Shown: positions 14,172 to 54,973 of the stretch, one piece after another
Position numbering within the stretch: the first letter of the stretch is position 1
How the letters are laid out: each line of letters opens with the position of its first letter
Source: Gracilimonas mengyeensis
Lineage (GTDB): Bacteria; Bacteroidota; Rhodothermia; Balneolales; Balneolaceae
Assembly (NCBI RefSeq): GCF_900182705.1
Contig: NZ_FXTP01000006.1
Span: forward strand, 62,001 to 126,000
Length of the DNA: 64,000 nucleotides
Direction: 5' to 3'
Program-made: the position numbers and the translations under genes
Notes under the pieces: generated by a model
What the model was told of the DNA's origin: nothing
The model's input: the letters and a program-made list of their open reading frames with translations, nothing else
The model's database searches: none

Positions 14172-14275
14172 GTTGGAGTGGTTGAATGAAACACACGGTC
14201 CATAAGGTTAATAACTGATAGAAAAGTCTGTCCGTTTTAATTAAATTGATTGAGTGCAAAAATGATATTGTATCA

Positions 14276-14581
14276 ATGGCTACGAATATAGATTTCCATT
14301 CTGAACAACTTAAGCAACTTTGTAAGAAGTACAATGTGGAGAAGCTATATCTGTTTGGATCTGCAATTACAAATGATTTCACTGAAGACAGTGATTTGGA
14401 TTTCATGGTTAAATTTAAACGTCAGGGTTTTGAAGGTGCATTTGATCAATTTATTGGGTTCAAGCAGGAGTTGGAGCAAATTTATGGCCGGCCTGTAGAC
14501 TTATATCACTTCAAAAAGTTCAGGAATTCGATCTTTCAGCAGGAAGTAGAACAGACCAAAGAGCTTCTCTATGCCGCATAA
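14276..14581 (+). CDS. MNT-type nucleotidyltransferase (MntA-like antitoxin)
   Basis: A 101-residue minimal nucleotidyltransferase. The catalytic signature is LFGSAITNDFTEDSDLDFMV: the GS pair followed by the DxD motif (SDLD). The C-terminal RPVDLYHFKKFRNSIF is also typical. In HEPN/MNT pairs this protein adds AMP to the HEPN toxin and silences it. A TTG start at 14246 would add ten residues; the ATG at 14276 is preferred. It overlaps the downstream HEPN gene by 11 nt, the normal arrangement. Confidence 0.88.
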   Translation: MATNIDFHSEQLKQLCKKYNVEKLYLFGSAITNDFTEDSDLDFMVKFKRQGFEGAFDQFIGFKQELEQIYGRPVDLYHFKKFRNSIFQQEVEQTKELLYAA

Positions 14582-14903
14582 AGCCAGAAAATTACTCCTT
14601 GATATAAGCCTTTCATGTCAGGAAATTCTGGATTTTATTGAGGGTAAAAGTTTTGAGGATTTTCAGGAGGAACGCATACTCCAGCTTGCAATAGAAAGAG
14701 AGTTTGAAATCATCGGGGAAGCGTTGCTCAGGTTATCCCGAATTGAAGAAGATTCGCTTGCAGATAAAATTCCTGAATACCGCAAAATTATAGATTTCAG
14801 AAATATCATAGCTCATGGGTATGATATAATTGATGAGGCAGCAATGTGGGATTTTGCAGTAAATCGGGTTCCTGTACTGTTGGAAAAAGTAAAAAATTAT
14901 TGA
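14571..14903 (+). CDS. HEPN-domain RNase toxin (HepT/DUF86)
   Basis: A 110-residue all-helical HEPN protein. The RNase motif Rx4-6H is RNIIAH (residues 86-91), followed by the conserved GYDIID in which the tyrosine is the adenylylation site in characterised HepT proteins. The start MPHKARKLLLDISLSCQEI and the core ILQLAIEREFEIIGEALLRL are characteristic. It forms a type VII toxin-antitoxin pair with the overlapping MNT gene. Both genes look intact. Confidence 0.9.
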   Translation: MPHKARKLLLDISLSCQEILDFIEGKSFEDFQEERILQLAIEREFEIIGEALLRLSRIEEDSLADKIPEYRKIIDFRNIIAHGYDIIDEAAMWDFAVNRVPVLLEKVKNY

Positions 14904-15752: not shown

Positions 15753-18611
15753 ATGAATACTATTAATGAAGGAATTTTATCTACAATTGGGCGTACACCA
15801 CTCATTGAGTTGAAAAAGGTGTGCGCTGATTTTCCATTGAGGTTGTATGCCAAGCTGGAAATGTTTAACCCCGGCGGAAGCATTAAAGACCGCCCTGCCT
15901 CTCGAATTATCCTTGATGCTTTAGAAAACGGAGATCTCAAACCGGGCGCTACCGTTATTGAATCAAGTTCCGGCAATATGGCGATTGGCCTCGCCCAGTT
16001 GTGCCGTTATTATGATTTGAACCTGGTTGTGGTGGTGGATCCTAAAATTAACCGCCATACTTTAAACATTCTTAAAGCCTTTGGAGTCCGCATCGAAAAG
16101 GTGGAAACGCCCGATGAACACGGTAATTATCTCTCCGGCAGGTTGCAAAGGGTGCAGGATTTGTTAGATATGATTCCGAATAGCTACTGGCCTAATCAAT
16201 ATGCGAATAAGGCCAATCCACACGCGCATCACCAAACCATGGCAGAGATCGTGGAGAGCATGGATAATCCGCCCGATTACCTGTTTGCCTCCACCAGTAC
16301 CTGCGGCACCATTATGGGATGTGCCGAATATGTACGAAGCCAAAATTTACACACCAAAATGGTGGCCGTTGATGCCTTGGGAAGTGTGATTTTTGGTTCT
16401 TCTGCAGCAGAACGTTTGGTGCCCGGTCATGGAGCGGGGCGTTCTTCTAAACTGTTAAATAAAGACTTTATCGATCACGTGGTACACATCAACGACAAGG
16501 AATGTGTTGGCGGTTGCCATAGATTGCTGAACAAAGAAGCGATTCTTGCCGGGGGATCGTCGGGTGCTGTTATTGCTGCAGTTGAGAAATTGAGGTCGCA
16601 AATTCCGGATGGATCAAGCTGCGCGCTCATCTTGCCCGATAATGGCGAGCGCTACCTGGATACTATTTATAATGATGAATGGATAAAGGCTCATTTTGAG
16701 AAATCAGAATGTTCAATCGCTGTCAAAGGCAGAGCACAAGAAGTAGAAGTTGATGCAGAAGAAAGTGATGATCTCCAAAAAATTGCCATCATAGGCGGCG
16801 GACCCAAAGGAATGTATGGCTTTGAACGACTGGCGGCTCAATTCAAGGCGCACCTGGTAGAGCATAAAGTTGAAATCCACGTGTACAACAAAACGGCCCA
16901 TTTTGGTGCGGGCGATATTTATCAACCTAACCAACCGGAGTATTTACTAATGAATAACCCGATTGGGGATGTCAATATGTGGATTGATGAGCAGCCGCGT
17001 CCGGTAGTACCCGAGCCTCTGTCGCTAACCGAATGGCTTCAAAAGAAAAAGAATCGTACTGTAATTGAAAAGGAGTATGCAAGCCGGGCGTTGGTTGGCG
17101 AATATCTGGAAGATGGCTTCAATGCAATTGCGAACCACTTGCCGGAGGGTGTAAGAGGTTCATACTTTCAGGGAGAAGTCATTGATCTTGAAAAAGAGAA
17201 CGAAGATGAGTGCTATTCCATCCACGTAAAAACAGCTCGCGGTGATGTCCAAAAGATGCCGCATCAATACGATCAGGTGCTGCTTGCTACCGGACATCCC
17301 AAAAATAAATTGACGGAAGAAGAAAAAGAGTATCAACAATTTGCTCAACAGAATGAAGGCACTGGTTTTGTTCCTTTTATATACCCGGTAAATTCTGAAC
17401 TGCAAGAGGTTGCAGCCGGCAGTTCCGTAGCGGTGAAAGGCATCGGCCTTACGTTTGTGGATGCAGTGCTCGCCTTAACAGAAGGCCGGGGCGGCACCTT
17501 TGAACGCGAGGGTGATTCGCTCAAATATGTATCCTCTGGAAAGGAGCCGAAGGTAATGTATCCTTTTTCCCGCAGCGGCTTGCCGATGATTCCGCGCGGA
17601 CCCGCTCCCCAAAATCCCACGCCCTTAAAATTCTTCACCAAAAAGGCATTCAGCCGGTTAAAAGCAGATTTACACGGAGCAAAGCTTGATTTTAAAGCAC
17701 ACATTCTGCCGGTGTTGTACCAGGAGATGAATGTTGCTTTTTATGATGTTCAGCTGAAAAAGTACGAATACAAGGTAGACCTGCAGGACTGTGAAACATA
17801 TGCGGAAATAGAACATCATATTGAGCGATTTCATCAGCAACATCCGGACATTCAGCGCTTTGATCCGGTCTTATTTTTATCTCATCTTGATGGGCCGGAT
17901 TTCCTCCATGCGGATTCATTTCACGCCAAAATTAAAGAGTACCTGGAGTTCTTTTTAGCCGAAGCAAAGAAGGGCGAGTTACACAGTCCCTGGGCGGCGG
18001 CAAGTGCGGTATGGCGTAAGGCCACCCCGGTATTTGGCGATTTATATGCTTTCGGCGGTTTGGAGCCAGAATCACAAGCGTATGTTGATAGCAGATTCCG
18101 GCGCCTGCTGAACCGCGTAACATTCGGTCCGCCCATAGAAAGCAGTGAGAAAATCCTGGCACTGATAAAGGCAGGTATGCTAAATTTCCGGATGGCTCAA
18201 AATCCTTCCTTACAAACGAGTGAAGATGATCATACCTTTGTGCTCTATTCGGAAGATTTGGATGAAAGTGTAGCCACCAATTATTTGATTGATGCCCGGA
18301 TTGCCAATGTTTCCATCGATGAGAATCAATCGTTGCTCTATAAAAACCTGCAGCAGCGTGGGCTCATCACCTTATTCAAAAATGAAGCCCAAAACCATGT
18401 CTACCAGCCCGGCTGTGCGGCTATTTCACGCGAAGGGTTTACGGTGGATGAATCCGGCAACCCTAATCCCTCCATTGCATGTACCGGCACCCCTACCGAG
18501 GGCGTAACTTTTGATAATGATGCGCTTTCCCGAAACCGAAATAATTTTGTAAGTGATTGGGCGGCAATGGTTCGAAAGTCGCACCGCGTCCCATCTCCAA
18601 TAAAATCCTAA
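15753..18611 (+). CDS. Fusion: SbnA-like amino-acid synthase + FAD/NAD(P)-binding domain
   Basis: A 952-residue two-part protein. Residues 1-325 are a fold-type II PLP enzyme close to S. aureus SbnA: NPGGSIKDRP with PLP lysine Lys45, IESSSGNMAIGLA, YWPNQYAN, AVDALGSVIFG, ILAGGSSGAVIAA, ILPDNGERYLD. SbnA condenses O-phosphoserine with glutamate to give N-(2-amino-2-carboxyethyl)-glutamate, a precursor of diaminopropionate. Residues 343-950 begin with a Rossmann dinucleotide motif (IAIIGGGPKGMYGFERL) and have LLMNNPIGDVNMW and VLLATGHPKN, matching the NAD_binding_9-type FAD/NAD(P) family. The fused second domain may replace the separate SbnB oxidase; that is inference. A decarboxylase gene follows 10 nt downstream. 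Confidence 0.85.
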   Translation: MNTINEGILSTIGRTPLIELKKVCADFPLRLYAKLEMFNPGGSIKDRPASRIILDALENGDLKPGATVIESSSGNMAIGLAQLCRYYDLNLVVVVDPKINRHTLNILKAFGVRIEKVETPDEHGNYLSGRLQRVQDLLDMIPNSYWPNQYANKANPHAHHQTMAEIVESMDNPPDYLFASTSTCGTIMGCAEYVRSQNLHTKMVAVDALGSVIFGSSAAERLVPGHGAGRSSKLLNKDFIDHVVHINDKECVGGCHRLLNKEAILAGGSSGAVIAAVEKLRSQIPDGSSCALILPDNGERYLDTIYNDEWIKAHFEKSECSIAVKGRAQEVEVDAEESDDLQKIAIIGGGPKGMYGFERLAAQFKAHLVEHKVEIHVYNKTAHFGAGDIYQPNQPEYLLMNNPIGDVNMWIDEQPRPVVPEPLSLTEWLQKKKNRTVIEKEYASRALVGEYLEDGFNAIANHLPEGVRGSYFQGEVIDLEKENEDECYSIHVKTARGDVQKMPHQYDQVLLATGHPKNKLTEEEKEYQQFAQQNEGTGFVPFIYPVNSELQEVAAGSSVAVKGIGLTFVDAVLALTEGRGGTFEREGDSLKYVSSGKEPKVMYPFSRSGLPMIPRGPAPQNPTPLKFFTKKAFSRLKADLHGAKLDFKAHILPVLYQEMNVAFYDVQLKKYEYKVDLQDCETYAEIEHHIERFHQQHPDIQRFDPVLFLSHLDGPDFLHADSFHAKIKEYLEFFLAEAKKGELHSPWAAASAVWRKATPVFGDLYAFGGLEPESQAYVDSRFRRLLNRVTFGPPIESSEKILALIKAGMLNFRMAQNPSLQTSEDDHTFVLYSEDLDESVATNYLIDARIANVSIDENQSLLYKNLQQRGLITLFKNEAQNHVYQPGCAAISREGFTVDESGNPNPSIACTGTPTEGVTFDNDALSRNRNNFVSDWAAMVRKSHRVPSPIKS

Positions 18612-18620
18612 ACCCCTGAT

Positions 18621-20048
18621 ATGAACACCGGTTTTTTTCCACCTCTTACTCCCATTACTTCGCCATGGATGCATGATTTATTGGCCGACAAAGAGGCCTT
18701 GAAAACCCTTTTTGAGCAGCATGGCTCCCCGATAAATGTGCATCAGATGGAGCCGTTTGAGGCTAATTACGAAACGTATCAGGCGGTATTTAATCGGCAT
18801 GAGGTTAAGCATAAGGTGTTTTTTGCCCGCAAAGCCAACAAATGTCGGGCTTATGTACAGAAAGCAAAGGAACTGGATATAGGGGTGGATGTGGCGAGTT
18901 ATCAGGAGCTTAAGCAATGCCTGGATCTGGGATGTGATTCAGAAAACCTGGTATTAACCGCCGCCATAAAAACTGAACGATTGGTTCGTTTGGCGTTGGC
19001 TAATGACGTGCTCATTGTGTTGGATAATGAAGAGGAATGCTCTCTTATAAATCGCATAGCCGGCGAGCTTGGCAAGACGCCCACCGTAGCTTTGCGCATT
19101 AGCGGATTCCGGTTTGAAGGCGAAAAACTCTACAGCCGGTTCGGTTTTGACATCGAAAAAGCACAGGAATTTATTACCCAAGGCTTAGGGACGCATAACG
19201 CACATCATAACCTCCGGTTTGGCGGCTTTCATTTTCACCTGGATGGATACTCTATAAGACAACGCGCCGAAGCGTTATTGCAGACCATAGAACTGAGCGA
19301 AACGTTGGCCGGACAACACATTGAAACTTCTTTTATTGATATAGGAGGAGGCTTGTTGACGAGATACGTAGCAGCCCGGGATGAATGGATGACTTTTTGG
19401 GAGGAACTTAAAAAGGCACTACAAGGTAAGCGTGAGCCGGTCACTTTTGGGAATAACCCGTTGGGGTTTGTAACCAGAGAGGATAAGGTAGAGGGCAAGC
19501 CAAATGTGTATCCCTATTTTAATGAGACACCCAAGGCAAAGTTTCTTGAACATGTGCTGTCCTATGAAGACCCACAGGGGAACACGGTTGCTGAGCGGTT
19601 ACGTGAGCAGGATATTGAGCTTCGTATTGAGCCGGGACGATCGCTGTTGGACCAGGTAGGTATGACGATGGCCAAAGTGGCCCATCGCAAGAAAGATATG
19701 CGAGGTGATTGGCTGGTGGGGCTGGAAATGAATCGGAGTCAGCTGTTTAGTTCCAGCGAGGATTTCCTGGTTGATCCCCTTTTTGTTTCCATGCAGCCAT
19801 CAGTAGAGATACAGGAACCGGCATCCGTCTATTTTACCGGGGCTTATTGTCTTGAGCAGGACATCATCCTGAAACGGAAAATCACGCTTCCTCAACTTCC
19901 TGAAATTGGGGATGTCATTGCTTTTCCCAACACGGCCGGTTATATGATGCATTTTTACGAGACCCGCTCGCACTTACATCCCTTTACCAAAAATGTGATA
20001 ATGAATGCAGACTCACCGACCGAATTTACCATGGACACCGATATTTGA
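18621..20048 (+). CDS. Y4yA/SbnH-like PLP-dependent decarboxylase
   Basis: A 475-residue fold-type III PLP enzyme of the diaminopimelate/ornithine decarboxylase group, best matching the Y4yA subfamily. The PLP lysine is Lys71 in VFFARKANK. Other active-site blocks are GVDVASYQEL, GGFHFHLDGYS, FIDIGGGLLTRY (phosphate-binding glycines), RIEPGRSLLDQVG and GAYCLEQD. An insertion near 260-300 (KREPVTFGNNPLGFV) is unlike diaminopimelate decarboxylase. It starts 10 nt after the SbnA-FAD gene, so the two form one operon and probably act in sequence on a non-protein amino acid. The substrate is unknown. Confidence 0.85.
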   Translation: MNTGFFPPLTPITSPWMHDLLADKEALKTLFEQHGSPINVHQMEPFEANYETYQAVFNRHEVKHKVFFARKANKCRAYVQKAKELDIGVDVASYQELKQCLDLGCDSENLVLTAAIKTERLVRLALANDVLIVLDNEEECSLINRIAGELGKTPTVALRISGFRFEGEKLYSRFGFDIEKAQEFITQGLGTHNAHHNLRFGGFHFHLDGYSIRQRAEALLQTIELSETLAGQHIETSFIDIGGGLLTRYVAARDEWMTFWEELKKALQGKREPVTFGNNPLGFVTREDKVEGKPNVYPYFNETPKAKFLEHVLSYEDPQGNTVAERLREQDIELRIEPGRSLLDQVGMTMAKVAHRKKDMRGDWLVGLEMNRSQLFSSSEDFLVDPLFVSMQPSVEIQEPASVYFTGAYCLEQDIILKRKITLPQLPEIGDVIAFPNTAGYMMHFYETRSHLHPFTKNVIMNADSPTEFTMDTDI

Positions 20049-20070
20049 AGCAGTTCACCGCTTAGTAACG

Positions 20071-20145
20071 CCACAAAGACACTAAGGATCACAAGGAATG
20101 ATGAAAAGCTACTTGGTGAATCTTCGTGCCCTTGTGTCTTTGTGG
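20071..20145. repeat. Inverted repeat between decarboxylase and sigma-factor genes
   Basis: CCACAAAGACAC (20071-20082) and its exact reverse complement GTGTCTTTGTGG (20134-20145) bracket about 51 nt that are themselves partly complementary. It separates the two transcription units and could act as a terminator or be an inserted palindromic repeat. Confidence 0.8.
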
Positions 20146-20249
20146 TCTTAAACAGGTTGAATAATCCTCACCATATTTACCGCTTATTCAGGTTTTAGAA
20201 GACAAAATATTTTAGCTTAGCACTTCTACTTTTCTCAACTCTCGCCATC

Positions 20250-20792
20250 TTGGAAGCTGAAAAGATCTTACGTCAACTTTTTGATGAACAATTCTATCCC
20301 CTGGTATTTCACGCTTACCGGTATGTGAAGGACTACGAGCAAGCCAGGGAAATTGTGCAGGACGTGTTCGTAAAAGTGTGGCAGAACGTAGACCAACTTC
20401 AGCAGGTCCGCGATAAGGAAGCCTATTTGTACAAGGCGGTCAAACATTCATCCCTGAACTTCCTGAAACATGTGGAAGTACGTAAGCGATATGTGGAGGA
20501 AGAAAAGTCGGGCGGGCAGGAGACGGCTTCATCCCCGGAAGAAAAAATTATCAGTGAAGAAACCCAGCGGCAGGTGCACGACGCTATCAACAAGCTGCCG
20601 GCACACTGGAAAGAAGCGTTGGTTTTGAGCAAGTATCAGGGACTTAACTACCGGGATATCGCCACACGCATGAATATTTCCCAGAAAACCGTAGAGAAGT
20701 ATATCTCTAAAGCATATCGTTTTTTGAGGGGAGAATTAAATGAGCTGCTGCTGCTCGTACTACTGATTCTGGAACTATTTAAAAAAAATTGA
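20250..20792 (+). CDS. ECF sigma factor (FecI-like)
   Basis: A 180-residue extracytoplasmic-function sigma-70 factor. Region 2 is FDEQFYPLVFHAYRYVKDYEQAREIVQDVFVKVW; region 4 is LPAHWKEALVLSKYQGLNYRDIATRMNISQKTVEKYISKAYRFLR, a helix-turn-helix. It ends in a hydrophobic tail (LLLLVLLILELF) often seen in the Bacteroidota FecI-like group. The start is TTG at 20250; I see no in-frame ATG nearby upstream. It is followed by its FecR anti-sigma factor and a TonB receptor, so it very likely controls expression of that uptake system. Confidence 0.93.
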   Translation: MEAEKILRQLFDEQFYPLVFHAYRYVKDYEQAREIVQDVFVKVWQNVDQLQQVRDKEAYLYKAVKHSSLNFLKHVEVRKRYVEEEKSGGQETASSPEEKIISEETQRQVHDAINKLPAHWKEALVLSKYQGLNYRDIATRMNISQKTVEKYISKAYRFLRGELNELLLLVLLILELFKKN

Positions 20793-20841
20793 TCACAGGT
20801 GTAGGGTAAATGCAAAGTGAGTTGTCATACAAGTACAAAGG

Positions 20842-21858
20842 ATGAGTAAACAACAGAAACATATTGATGAAGTGATCATGCTGCGGATACTCGAAAACCG
20901 GTCGACAAAAAGGGAAGAAGACCTTTTTGAAGAGTGGCTGAAGGAATCCAAAGAGCATGAAGAACTCTACCGTCAGTTTAGAAAGACGGCTGAACTCACT
21001 TTATGGTCTACAACATCTGCAGAGAAAAGCTGGGAAGCCATCACGCGAAAAGCAAAAAGCGGCGAACCCGTGCCATCGTATATTGAACTCCCGTCGGCCA
21101 ACACTACTCGGCTATGGGGGATCTCCCAAAAGATGCTTCGTGTGGCAGCGGCCGTGGTTTTTCTCATAGGCGCTTCCTTTCTGTTGATGCACATCCTTTC
21201 ACAACCTGAACAGCTTATTATTTCGGGCAACAACTACGGGCCGGATACGCCCTATGTGTTGCCGGATGGATCACAGGTGTTTTTGAACAACGATGCCGAA
21301 CTAACCATCATGGAAAATTTCGGGGATACAAACCGCAGGCTTTCGCTTAAAGGCGAAGCCTTTTTCGAGGTTGAAAGGAATGAGGACCTTCCTTTTGTCG
21401 TCGGTGTGCAGAATACAACGGTCAGCGTGTTGGGTACCAGTTTTAATGTTTTTTCGGATTCACTGAAAGAGGTAAAGGTATCGGTGGTGACGGGCATAGT
21501 AGAGTTCTTCGCGGAGGACACCACGGCTAAAGTCAGGCTGCAAAAAGGCGAGGAAGGGCAGTATCGTCCTCAGCTTGGAGCAGTTACCAAGGCCCCGATT
21601 GACAACCCCAATTTCCTTTCCTGGAAAACGGGCGTCTTTACCTTCGATCATACCCCGGTGCAGGAAGCATTACAACAGCTGGCCGCGTATTACAATCAGC
21701 CCATGGTATATGAGCATGATACCAACCGACCGGCGCCTGAACTTACCACCACCTTTGATCAACCATCATTAGAAGCTGTTTTGGATGAAATACAGCTGTT
21801 ATTAAACGCTTCAACCACCATCAGAAATGACACGATCATATTTACCCCTCGTCACTAA
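20842..21858 (+). CDS. FecR-type anti-sigma factor / signal transducer
   Basis: A 338-residue inner-membrane protein. The cytoplasmic N-terminal part (1-85, EEDLFEEWLKESKEHEELYRQF) binds the sigma factor; a transmembrane helix lies at about 97-115; the periplasmic FecR domain follows (VLPDGSQVFLNNDAELTI, RRLSLKGEAFFEVERNEDLPFVV, VSVLGTSFNVFS, VVTGIVEF) with a C-terminal DUF4974-like STN-type segment (FTFDHTPVQEALQQLAAYYN). It passes the signal from the loaded receptor to the sigma factor. Its last 32 nt overlap the receptor gene. Confidence 0.93.
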   Translation: MSKQQKHIDEVIMLRILENRSTKREEDLFEEWLKESKEHEELYRQFRKTAELTLWSTTSAEKSWEAITRKAKSGEPVPSYIELPSANTTRLWGISQKMLRVAAAVVFLIGASFLLMHILSQPEQLIISGNNYGPDTPYVLPDGSQVFLNNDAELTIMENFGDTNRRLSLKGEAFFEVERNEDLPFVVGVQNTTVSVLGTSFNVFSDSLKEVKVSVVTGIVEFFAEDTTAKVRLQKGEEGQYRPQLGAVTKAPIDNPNFLSWKTGVFTFDHTPVQEALQQLAAYYNQPMVYEHDTNRPAPELTTTFDQPSLEAVLDEIQLLLNASTTIRNDTIIFTPRH

Positions 21859-24358
21859 AGGCTTTCTCATCTTGGCCTGTTTACTAAATTATTCTGCAAG
21901 AGAGCTCACGGCACAACCTACTCAATCCAATCCCTCTATTCAGGTACCCGGTTTCCAGGGAACGGCGGAAGCGCTGCTGGATTCCATCGAAAAAAATGAA
22001 CGCATCACTTTTTCCTATTCCAGCGCCATATCGCTGGACTTCCCCGTAGATTACGAGCCGGAAACGCACCAGTTGGATTATTTTCTCGAGCACCTTTTTA
22101 AGGAGCAATCGATAGCTTACAAAATTTCAGGAGAAAAAGTGCTGCTTTTCCCTGCCGATACCTCGCCTGAAGTTACCCAGGTGGTAAAAGGCCGGGTTAT
22201 TGATCAACAAACCAAAGTGGGGTTAATTGGCGCCCACGTAATTGTACAGGGAACCGATATCGGTGCAGCCACAAATTCCCATGGAGATTTTATTATTCAT
22301 AAGGTCCCGCTGTGCCGGCATACGTTTAAGGTGATGTATGTGGGATACAAGCCACGCATCATCCCCGAAATAATGGTGGGTTCTGCCAAGCAAGTAGTGC
22401 TGAATGTTGAGCTGGAAGAAGACGTGGTGGAAGAAGCCCGGCGCTATGCGGGAGGTTTTGACGACCCGGCGCGGCTGGCATCCAGTTTTGCAGGCGTCAC
22501 CTATGGCAATCCTCAGGATAATGCCATTATCATTCGGGGAAATGCGCCGAAGGGATTGCTTTGGCGCCTGGAAGGCATTGAAATTCCCAACCCAAACCAC
22601 TTTCCGGAAGGCAACGTAATTGGTGGCGGCTTGTTTACTATTTTCAGCAACCAGCTACTGGCGGACTCCGATTTCTTCACCGGCGCTTTCCCGGCCGAAT
22701 ACGGCAACGCCCTGTCCGGGGTTTTTGACATGAAACTGCGCAACGGAAACAGCGACGTACGGGAGTACACCTTCCAGGCCGGGATGATGGGACTCGATTT
22801 TGCCACCGAGGGCCCTTTCTCTACACGCAGCAATGCTTCTTACCTTATCAACTACCGATACTCCACACTTGGGTTGATGACCGACCTGCAATTCATCGAT
22901 ACCGAGCAGGAAATTCGCTACCAGGATCTGTCTTTTAAACTAAATTTTCCTACTCGCAAAGCCGGTACTTTTGGCCTGTGGGGTATCGGCAGTCTTGATG
23001 GGTTGGATGAAGCGGAAGAACAAGATTCTACCCAATGGAAATATGAGTATGACCGGATGGATTTTGAAGCCGGCTTCAGCGTAGGGGCTTTGGGTTTGAA
23101 TCATAAATACATTCTGGGGAAATCCACCTTTATCAATTCTACGGCAGCGGTCTCGGTGCAGGATATCTGGTATGATATGGACCGGGTGGATGACAACCTC
23201 ACCCTTCGCGATAATGAATACATCCAAAGTCTGAGCGGCCAACTTACGCTGACCTCTAAAGTGAATCACAAATTTAGTGCACGGTTCAATCAAACCACAG
23301 GCATTATCTGGAATTACCTGTTTTATGATATGGATTTCAAAGCTACCACCAACGATGATCCTGATACTTACCAAACTTACGTAGCGGAACAGGGCAACAG
23401 CCAGCTTGTTCAGGCTTTTACGCAGGCTCAGTACAGCTTTGGTCCTACGGTGAAAGCGACCGGTGGCGTGCACTTTCAGTACTTTATGCTGAATGATAAC
23501 TACTCGGTGGAACCACGGGCTGGTATCAGCTGGGAAGTGCATCCCCGGCACCGGCTAAGTTTTGGATACGGTCGTCACAGCCAGCTTGAAGATCTGCAGT
23601 ATTACCTGGGCGTCCGTGAAACCGAAACGGGGTCCTATCAACCCAATAAAAACCTGGACTTTACCCGGGCCGATCACTTCGTATTGGGCTATGATGTTCG
23701 CTTAACACCCAACACCCGCATCAAAATTGAGCCGTATTACCAGTACCTGTTTGATGTTCCGGTGATCCCGGACAGCTCATTCTCCATGATCAACCTGAGG
23801 GACGAGCGTTATATCAATGAGCCCATGAGGAATGAAGGTACCGGTGAAAACTATGGCGTTGATTTCACACTGGAGAAATTCCTGAGTGACGGCTATTACT
23901 ATATGGCTACAGCTTCTGTTTTTGATTCCAGGTACAAAGGCGGTGATGGAGTGGAGCGGGATACGCGGTACAACCGAAAGTATGCCTTCAATTTTTTGGG
24001 TGGGAAGGAATTCAACGTAAAGGAAAACAATATTTTCGGGGTGAATGCGCGTCTCACCTATATGGGCGGTGAAAGAACCTATCCGCTTTTGTGGGAAGAA
24101 TCTATGCAACAAAAACGGGCTGTGCTGGATGAAAGCCGGGCCTTCGAGCATTCCCTGGATGGCAGCATCTTTTTGGATGTGACACTCAGCTACCGGATGA
24201 ACCATCGCCACGCAGCCCACGTGCTGGCCCTGCAAGTTAAAAACCTCTTAGGTGCTCCCACCAAGTATGATTACGAGTACAACTACGAAACCAACACCCT
24301 GGAACGTGAAGAAACCGTGATTTTGCTGCCTTCTATTAATTATAAGGTAGAGTTTTAG
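21827..24358 (+). CDS. TonB-dependent receptor with STN signalling and carboxypeptidase-like domains
   Basis: An 843-residue outer-membrane transporter. A signal peptide (to about residue 29) is followed by an STN signalling domain (about 45-115: EALLDSIEKNERITFSYSSAI), a carboxypeptidase-regulatory-like beta-sandwich (VVKGRVIDQQTKVGLIGAHVIVQGTDIGAATNSHGDF), a plug (NAIIIRGNAPKGLLWRLEGIEIPNPNH) and a C-terminal barrel ending in INYKVEF, an aromatic terminal residue as in outer-membrane barrels. The STN domain and adjacent FecI/FecR genes show it takes part in cell-surface signalling. Its cargo is not known; a metal chelate made by the neighbouring PLP enzymes is a reasonable guess, as is a peptide or glycan. 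Confidence 0.9.
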   Translation: MTRSYLPLVTKGFLILACLLNYSARELTAQPTQSNPSIQVPGFQGTAEALLDSIEKNERITFSYSSAISLDFPVDYEPETHQLDYFLEHLFKEQSIAYKISGEKVLLFPADTSPEVTQVVKGRVIDQQTKVGLIGAHVIVQGTDIGAATNSHGDFIIHKVPLCRHTFKVMYVGYKPRIIPEIMVGSAKQVVLNVELEEDVVEEARRYAGGFDDPARLASSFAGVTYGNPQDNAIIIRGNAPKGLLWRLEGIEIPNPNHFPEGNVIGGGLFTIFSNQLLADSDFFTGAFPAEYGNALSGVFDMKLRNGNSDVREYTFQAGMMGLDFATEGPFSTRSNASYLINYRYSTLGLMTDLQFIDTEQEIRYQDLSFKLNFPTRKAGTFGLWGIGSLDGLDEAEEQDSTQWKYEYDRMDFEAGFSVGALGLNHKYILGKSTFINSTAAVSVQDIWYDMDRVDDNLTLRDNEYIQSLSGQLTLTSKVNHKFSARFNQTTGIIWNYLFYDMDFKATTNDDPDTYQTYVAEQGNSQLVQAFTQAQYSFGPTVKATGGVHFQYFMLNDNYSVEPRAGISWEVHPRHRLSFGYGRHSQLEDLQYYLGVRETETGSYQPNKNLDFTRADHFVLGYDVRLTPNTRIKIEPYYQYLFDVPVIPDSSFSMINLRDERYINEPMRNEGTGENYGVDFTLEKFLSDGYYYMATASVFDSRYKGGDGVERDTRYNRKYAFNFLGGKEFNVKENNIFGVNARLTYMGGERTYPLLWEESMQQKRAVLDESRAFEHSLDGSIFLDVTLSYRMNHRHAAHVLALQVKNLLGAPTKYDYEYNYETNTLEREETVILLPSINYKVEF

Positions 24359-49717: not shown

Positions 49718-49761
49718 CCACGGACTAAAGTCCGTGGCTACATTCGATCATCCCTGCGGGA
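49718..49761. repeat. Palindromic repeat C, copy 3
   Basis: CCACGGAC-TAAA-GTCCGTGG (49718-49737, perfect 8-bp stem) followed by CTACATTCG and ATCCC-TGC-GGGAT (49749-49761). It is the best copy of the repeat that flanks the tandem genes. Confidence 0.85.
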
Positions 49762-49820
49762 TTTAGTCATCCAAAAAAAACCTCAACACTAACCACTCAA
49801 CATTCAACACTATTCATCGC

Positions 49821-54511: not shown

Positions 54512-54973
54512 TGGAGTGAGATTGAAAATTATAAATGTTGAATTTTGAATGGGCTCTGTGAATATGCGAAAGTAGAGGGGATAATAAAACCGACGGGACA
54601 GACAGCGAAAAAGGTTTTACATGTTGAGGTGCTTATATAGACGAACACCCTCCGCATGTTTTGATACATCAAAACATGGCACCTCCCTCAAGGGAGGACT
54701 TATCTATGCCTGCCATCAATATTCATATCATTGGTTTGAGCTTTTTCTATAGCGAGTAGTAAAAGGGGAAAATCCCTCTTTGAAGAGGGACCGAAAATGA
54801 ACTTGTTCATTTTCAGGGGGATGTACGATGGTTTAAATGGATATGAAACCCAAGATTGATATCGTTGGCACTAACATCCCACCCGGGAAAAGCCCTCCGA
54901 CTGCTCGGAGCTTCAAAGGAAGATTTTCTTTTGGGATAATGGAACTGAACTATTTTTTATCAAGTAGAGTATC
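54512..54973. other. Intergenic region with palindromic repeats
   Basis: No gene is supported. After a short TTGAATTTTGAATG fragment of composite repeat A (54537), hairpins CCTCCCTCAAGGGAGG (54681-54696) and CCCTCTTTGAAGAGGG (54774-54789), and a GAAAATGAAC-TT-GTTCATTTTC palindrome (54794-54815), are visible. A 61-codon plus-strand frame at 54837-55022 derives from repeat sequence and overlaps the symporter gene. Confidence 0.6.

Follow-up and report, generated by a model that had tools for sequence, protein, structure and literature searches.

Production of staphyloferrin B in Staphylococcus aureus relies on the SbnA/SbnB pair, the decarboxylase SbnH and an NIS synthetase. In SbnA, residues R132, Y152 and S185 are credited with the selection of O-phosphoserine (PMC12414870). 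N-citryl-diaminopropionate is the substrate of SbnH and N-citrylornithine that of FigC; MccE works on a 3-amino-3-carboxypropyl group (PMC7857480). Members of the L-aspartate N-hydroxylase family, which includes FzmM, CreE and the Streptomyces sp. V2 enzyme of PDB entry 8CP2, oxidise free aspartate (PMC10404684); their genomic partner is a nitrosuccinate lyase. The Y4yA genes of Sinorhizobium are described as enigmatic (PMC3973906).

Here, we analysed a stretch of 64,000 nucleotides from Gracilimonas mengyeensis (contig NZ_FXTP01000006.1), hereafter the window, in which two adjacent genes combine elements of these systems. As in the staphyloferrin B module, a true SbnA with its O-phosphoserine residues is followed by a PLP-dependent decarboxylase of the alanine-racemase fold. 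The window differs from that module by lacking SbnB, SbnH and an NIS synthetase, by the fusion of its SbnA to a flavin N-hydroxylase-like domain, and by the Y4yA family membership of its decarboxylase. The flavin domain shows end-to-end homology with the L-aspartate N-hydroxylases (about 26% identity), although it is paired with SbnA and Y4yA and not with a nitrosuccinate lyase. The features are as follows.

15753..16730, + strand: SbnA domain, residues 1-326, a PLP fold type II synthase (TIGR03945 at 420 bits, PDB 5d84, residue mapping)
16692..16773, + strand: acidic linker, about residues 314-340, with no in-frame start codon (three-frame translation)
16770..18611, + strand: flavin-dependent N-hydroxylase-like domain of class B monooxygenase type, residues 340-952 (PF13454, PDB 8cp2, residue mapping)
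18621..20048, + strand: Y4yA-family fold-III PLP decarboxylase, 475 aa (PF02784, Y4yA-annotated relatives, invariant columns)

A true SbnA joined to a flavoprotein and followed by a Y4yA enzyme

The ORF at 15753-18611 (+) is a single uninterrupted frame of 952 aa that encodes SbnA (residues 8-311) and a complete flavoprotein (PF13454 from residue 345, homology over residues 343-927). Three-frame translation of the junction revealed no in-frame ATG, GTG or TTG from about residue 314 to M356. The flavoprotein therefore lacks a start codon of its own in this stretch, and the single chain proposed by the sequence-only reading, an SbnA-like synthase plus a FAD/NAD(P)-type domain, holds. Among the intact loci compared, the fusion is found in the window only; the relatives examined encode SbnA and the flavoprotein in two ORFs, which overlap or are no more than about 10 nt apart. 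Given this arrangement, the fusion corresponds to two already neighbouring genes having been joined in place, and a single-base error in the window assembly may underlie it.

The SbnA domain scores 420.3 bits against TIGR03945, whose curated cut-off is 349.95, and matches the SbnA structure 5d84 with an E value of 1.6e-84. By alignment with this structure, the PLP lysine is K45 (K47 in SbnA), and R130, Y150 and S182 correspond to the O-phosphoserine-selecting residues R132, Y152 and S185. The passed cut-off together with these three residues rules out an ordinary cysteine synthase; judged on its sequence, the domain is a true SbnA that keeps its cofactor and O-phosphoserine residues, which sharpens the initial description of it as SbnA-like. 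Its nucleophile would most likely be L-glutamate, and its predicted product N-(2-amino-2-carboxyethyl)-L-glutamate (ACEGA).

The second ORF (18621-20048, +) encodes 475 aa and starts 9 nt past the stop of the first one. The protein matches PF02784 (Orn_Arg_deC_N) with 82 bits, and its best annotated relatives, carried on plasmids, are labelled "Y4yA family PLP-dependent enzyme", the one from Sulfitobacter sharing 40% identity. K71, H206, G242-244 (GGG), E337-R340 (EPGR), C410 and Y441 are invariant across four relatives and are what we take to be the residues expected of fold-III PLP decarboxylases. The top PDB match is diaminopimelate decarboxylase 2p3e (64 bits), and SbnH is absent from the 25 PDB matches obtained down to an E value of 1e-3. 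An SbnH identity is thus unsupported, diaminopimelate decarboxylases being nearer, and from the earlier label of "Y4yA/SbnH-like" we keep the Y4yA half, which the annotated relatives bear out.

The flavin domain has lost most of the aspartate-binding residues

The flavin domain scores 102.9 bits against PF13454 and aligns with the L-aspartate N-hydroxylase 8CP2 over its full length (residues 4-577, E 6.1e-40), the only relative returned by the PDB search. What had been read as a FAD/NAD(P)-binding domain is therefore a flavoprotein, although not a generic one, since it belongs to the aspartate N-hydroxylase fold family. It shares with these enzymes the FAD and NADPH motifs (GxGPKG for FAD and GxGLTFVD as second dinucleotide motif) and the equivalents of the catalytic-site residues N62, R266, R409 and R577 of 8CP2, which are N401, R615, R755 and R927 in the window protein. 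Elsewhere it departs from them: R13 is replaced by K352, R276 by L625 or a proline depending on the alignment, N413 by P759 and R416 by G762, and R412 is altered as well. Of the aspartate entry-chamber set (R13, R276, N413, R416 and R577), only R577 is retained. Among the nine flavoproteins linked to SbnA and Y4yA, the R412/N413/R416 cluster is missing from all, the R13 position holds a lysine in eight and an arginine in that of Tsukamurella, and N62, which lies above the flavin, is conserved in all nine, with R577 in six.

In the phylogenetic tree, the seven flavoproteins of the window's phylum fall into one clade (98/97), which also holds a flavoprotein (genome G059) whose partners were lost or never present. 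8CP2 and the other GPRG-type enzymes form a separate clade beside it (100/97). The flavoproteins of Sulfitobacter and Tsukamurella are long-branched and group with each other (88/82), away from those of the window's phylum, a placement by which the tree does not show that all linked flavoproteins share one origin.

The lost binding cluster and the position outside the 8CP2 clade rule out an aspartate N-hydroxylase proper, and for the same reasons the substrate is probably not aspartate; with R276, R412, N413 and R416 all altered, it is not readable from the sequence. Homology and motifs suggest that the domain most likely remains an NADPH- and O2-dependent N-oxygenase with an altered substrate. 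N-oxygenation is suggested by the fold and the cofactor motifs, and flavoproteins of the Pfam family could perform other oxidations. The AlphaFold model of the domain has a mean pLDDT of 54, too weak for pocket inspection or structure search. Two flavoprotein relatives outside the linked group adjoin genes resembling nitronate monooxygenases, as judged from annotation and sequence, a neighbourhood in keeping with chemistry of nitro compounds in the family at large.

SbnA, the flavoprotein and Y4yA form a conserved unit

We surveyed 394 genomes of the window's phylum, a sample drawn around genome G399, for Y4yA and flavoprotein matches at an E value of 1e-40. Each was found in 10 of the 394 genomes and both in eight. 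Fisher's test of this co-occurrence gives a p value of 1.5e-13 when genomes are counted and of 4e-10 when genera are. The genes SbnA-flavoprotein-Y4yA are intact, in the same order and on the same strand, in seven genomes of this phylum, and the eighth co-occurrence locus (G364) is interrupted by contig ends. The six other SbnA genes that exceed the cut-off in the sample all lie within such an operon. A plasmid of Sulfitobacter pontiacus is annotated with the three genes in this order as well. On one of Tsukamurella paurometabola, an intact flavoprotein ORF of 480 codons (L024, 6460-7902), of which the gene table gives only part as a partial hypothetical protein, lies between the SbnA and Y4yA genes. 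The intact loci thus amount to nine, from three phyla, and SbnA, the flavoprotein and Y4yA are a conserved unit. The possibility that the fused domain is unconnected to the decarboxylase is set aside by the eight shared genomes and the nine intact loci. Of the wider association raised by the sequence-only reading, that of the fusion with both Y4yA and IucA/IucC, the linkage of flavoprotein, SbnA and Y4yA is borne out; IucA/IucC is absent from the window's genome and nine related ones, and among the intact loci the fusion is confined to the window. A peptide-pattern scan of the genome contigs returned only four distant flavoproteins, the patterns being too loose.

Around the intact loci we found no further conserved neighbour of the module. 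A larger conserved cluster is ruled out, as the neighbours vary at every intact locus, save for synteny between near relatives, and no gene for use of the product, export or resistance is conserved with the module. For lack of such conservation, the methyltransferase upstream and the sigma/FecR/outer-membrane genes downstream in the window were excluded from it. Two loci of one genus have the same flanks, of which one holds the full operon and the other a diverged flavoprotein only (L074, 8394-10232, and L068, 7984-12164).

Siderophore partners and genomic surroundings

The absence of SbnB and of an NIS synthetase near the operon, pointed out from the sequence, proved true and extends to the whole genome. 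No IucA/IucC was found in the genome of the window or in nine related genomes, the E. coli and Haloferax controls being positive, and SbnB above the cut-off was found in none of the seven linked genomes tested. The module has no conserved NRPS, NIS synthetase, exporter or receptor gene accompanying it, and in other genomes the operon has no conserved metal regulator as a neighbour. The metallophore route considered at the outset is hence unsupported as a direct role.

Several other elements lie in the window. Directly 3' of the operon are a sigma-70 ECF factor, a FecR anti-sigma factor and a large CarboxypepD_reg outer membrane protein (20250-24358), a set that is not a conserved neighbour of the module in other genomes. 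An imperfect inverted repeat with 22-nt arms, 82% complementary, stands just past the operon (20066-20150); the genome holds a single additional copy, at 78%. A nucleotidyltransferase and HepT-like pair resembling the MntA/HepT toxin-antitoxin system is located just upstream (14246-14903), and farther away the whalefall-1 and Acido-Lenti-1 small RNAs of Rfam match over their gathering scores (54770-54825 and 49718-49763).

Y4yA also occurs in modules of other composition. In the rhizobial region y4yB-y4yA-y4xP-y4xO-y4xN-y4xM of the Sinorhizobium T3SS island, as in the window, Y4yA adjoins a gene of the cysteine-synthase family. That region differs by an octopine-dehydrogenase-type oxidoreductase and by IucA/IucC and MFS genes, and its SbnA-like partner is under the SbnA cut-off. 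The modules of Mycobacterium plasmids and of Agrobacterium Ti plasmids likewise have synthase, oxidoreductase and Y4yA adjacent, and the neighbours listed for them include no NIS synthetase, but their oxidoreductase is of the ornithine-cyclodeaminase (OCD)/SbnB type, as in Aureimonas, their synthase is divergent, and in Mycobacterium a MATE exporter is present. The three synthases tested from other Y4yA modules are divergent SbnA relatives that score 235-244 bits, below the cut-off. With a different oxidoreductase and a divergent synthase in those modules, the flavin-type module differs from them in two of its three parts. The position of these oxidoreductases and that of the flavoprotein are consistent with a shared slot. 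Another Y4yA cluster (L073, 2672-9520) contains, as read from sequence, a cysteine synthase-rhodanese-like fusion and cysteine desulfurase-like, flavin desaturase-like and GNAT-like genes. On a Deefgea plasmid (L035, 2997-7434), SbnA, SbnB and an aspartate-hydroxylase-like flavoprotein are consecutive and followed by a ThrH-like phosphatase, possibly an N-oxygenated diaminopropionate pathway of other design. Our literature search found no description of the SbnA-flavoprotein-Y4yA combination.

A proposed pathway and its alternatives

The reading that we prefer, although we would put it slightly short of an even chance, is a self-contained pathway of three activities whose end product is small and probably an N-oxygenated 1,2-diamine; we infer its nucleophile, step order, oxidation state and product purpose. 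The SbnA domain would condense an amino acid, most likely L-glutamate, with O-phospho-L-serine to give ACEGA. In SbnB's place, the flavin domain would use NADPH and O2 to oxygenate a nitrogen, either in this adduct or after its decarboxylation. If the secondary amine were attacked, the N-hydroxy compound could pass through a nitrone to 2-oxoglutarate and (N-hydroxy-)diaminopropionate. Y4yA would strip the serine-derived carboxylate to leave a 1,2-diaminoethane (ethylenediamine-type) unit; we picture it acting on a substituted amino acid because the related alanine-racemase-fold decarboxylases SbnH, FigC and MccE do. Since the flavin domain belongs with class B monooxygenases of the N-hydroxylase type, the product is likely oxygenated or oxidatively cleaved at nitrogen. 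The compact two-gene pathway to an amine or diamino acid first proposed from the sequence thus keeps its conserved set of activities, but not the view of the flavin domain as simply an SbnB-like dehydrogenase making a diamino acid.

It is rather unlikely that the flavin domain only does SbnB's job, converting ACEGA to L-2,3-diaminopropionate and 2-oxoglutarate with no oxygen left on nitrogen, and that Y4yA then yields unmodified ethylenediamine or has a conjugate formed later as its substrate. A true SbnA in genomes that lack SbnB above the cut-off argues for it, as does the OCD/SbnB-type or octopine-dehydrogenase-type enzyme that occupies the flavoprotein's place in other Y4yA modules. However, the nearest solved relative, 8CP2, is an N-hydroxylating monooxygenase and not a dehydrogenase or oxidase, and the Deefgea flavoprotein, a member of the aspartate-hydroxylase-like clade, has SbnB as well as SbnA next to it, so family membership need not mean SbnB replacement. 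We also consider unlikely a secreted aminopolycarboxylate chelator of the EDDS, EDHA or rhizobactin type, for which SbnA and Y4yA would assemble an amino acid bearing an N-(2-aminoethyl) group, with tailoring by the flavin domain, even though metallophore is a possible use of the product. Rhizobactin consists of ethylenediamine with alanine, lysine and malate (PMC7676072); related chelators are EDDS and EDHA. The Sinorhizobium T3SS-island modules, in which Y4yA and a cysteine-synthase-like gene meet octopine dehydrogenase and IucA/IucC, point the same way, as does the sigma/FecR/TonB-type outer membrane protein set immediately downstream in the window. Against this stand the missing IucA/IucC in its own and nine related genomes, the lack, in other genomes, of any conserved neighbour that is a receptor, an exporter or a metal regulator, and the divergence of the SbnA-like partners in metallophore-type modules, under the cut-off at 235-244 bits.

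The order of the steps could also be reversed, the flavin domain N-hydroxylating an amino acid that the fused SbnA then adds to O-phosphoserine, with decarboxylation by Y4yA last. The physical closeness of the two catalytic domains, fused in the window and encoded by overlapping or closely spaced genes elsewhere, would suit such a handover, and family members do oxidise a free amino acid, aspartate (PMC10404684). With the aspartate-binding arginine cluster largely lost, this order appears very improbable. We know of no hydroxylamine-type nucleophile for SbnA, which also speaks against it.

More tentatively than the pathway itself, we propose a new route, with representatives in three phyla or more. 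A flavin monooxygenase would stand in for SbnB and either cleave the SbnA adduct oxidatively or oxygenate it at nitrogen, and the three enzymes together may yield a compound of ethylenediamine type that is N-oxygenated, as a hydroxylamine, oxime or nitro group, and serves as a signal, antimetabolite or metal ligand. If true, this would be a minimal pathway uniting siderophore-type diaminopropionate chemistry with the N-oxygenase family of nitro and diazo natural products, and Y4yA would thereby gain a defined chemical context. As two genes encode all three activities, the question is directly testable.
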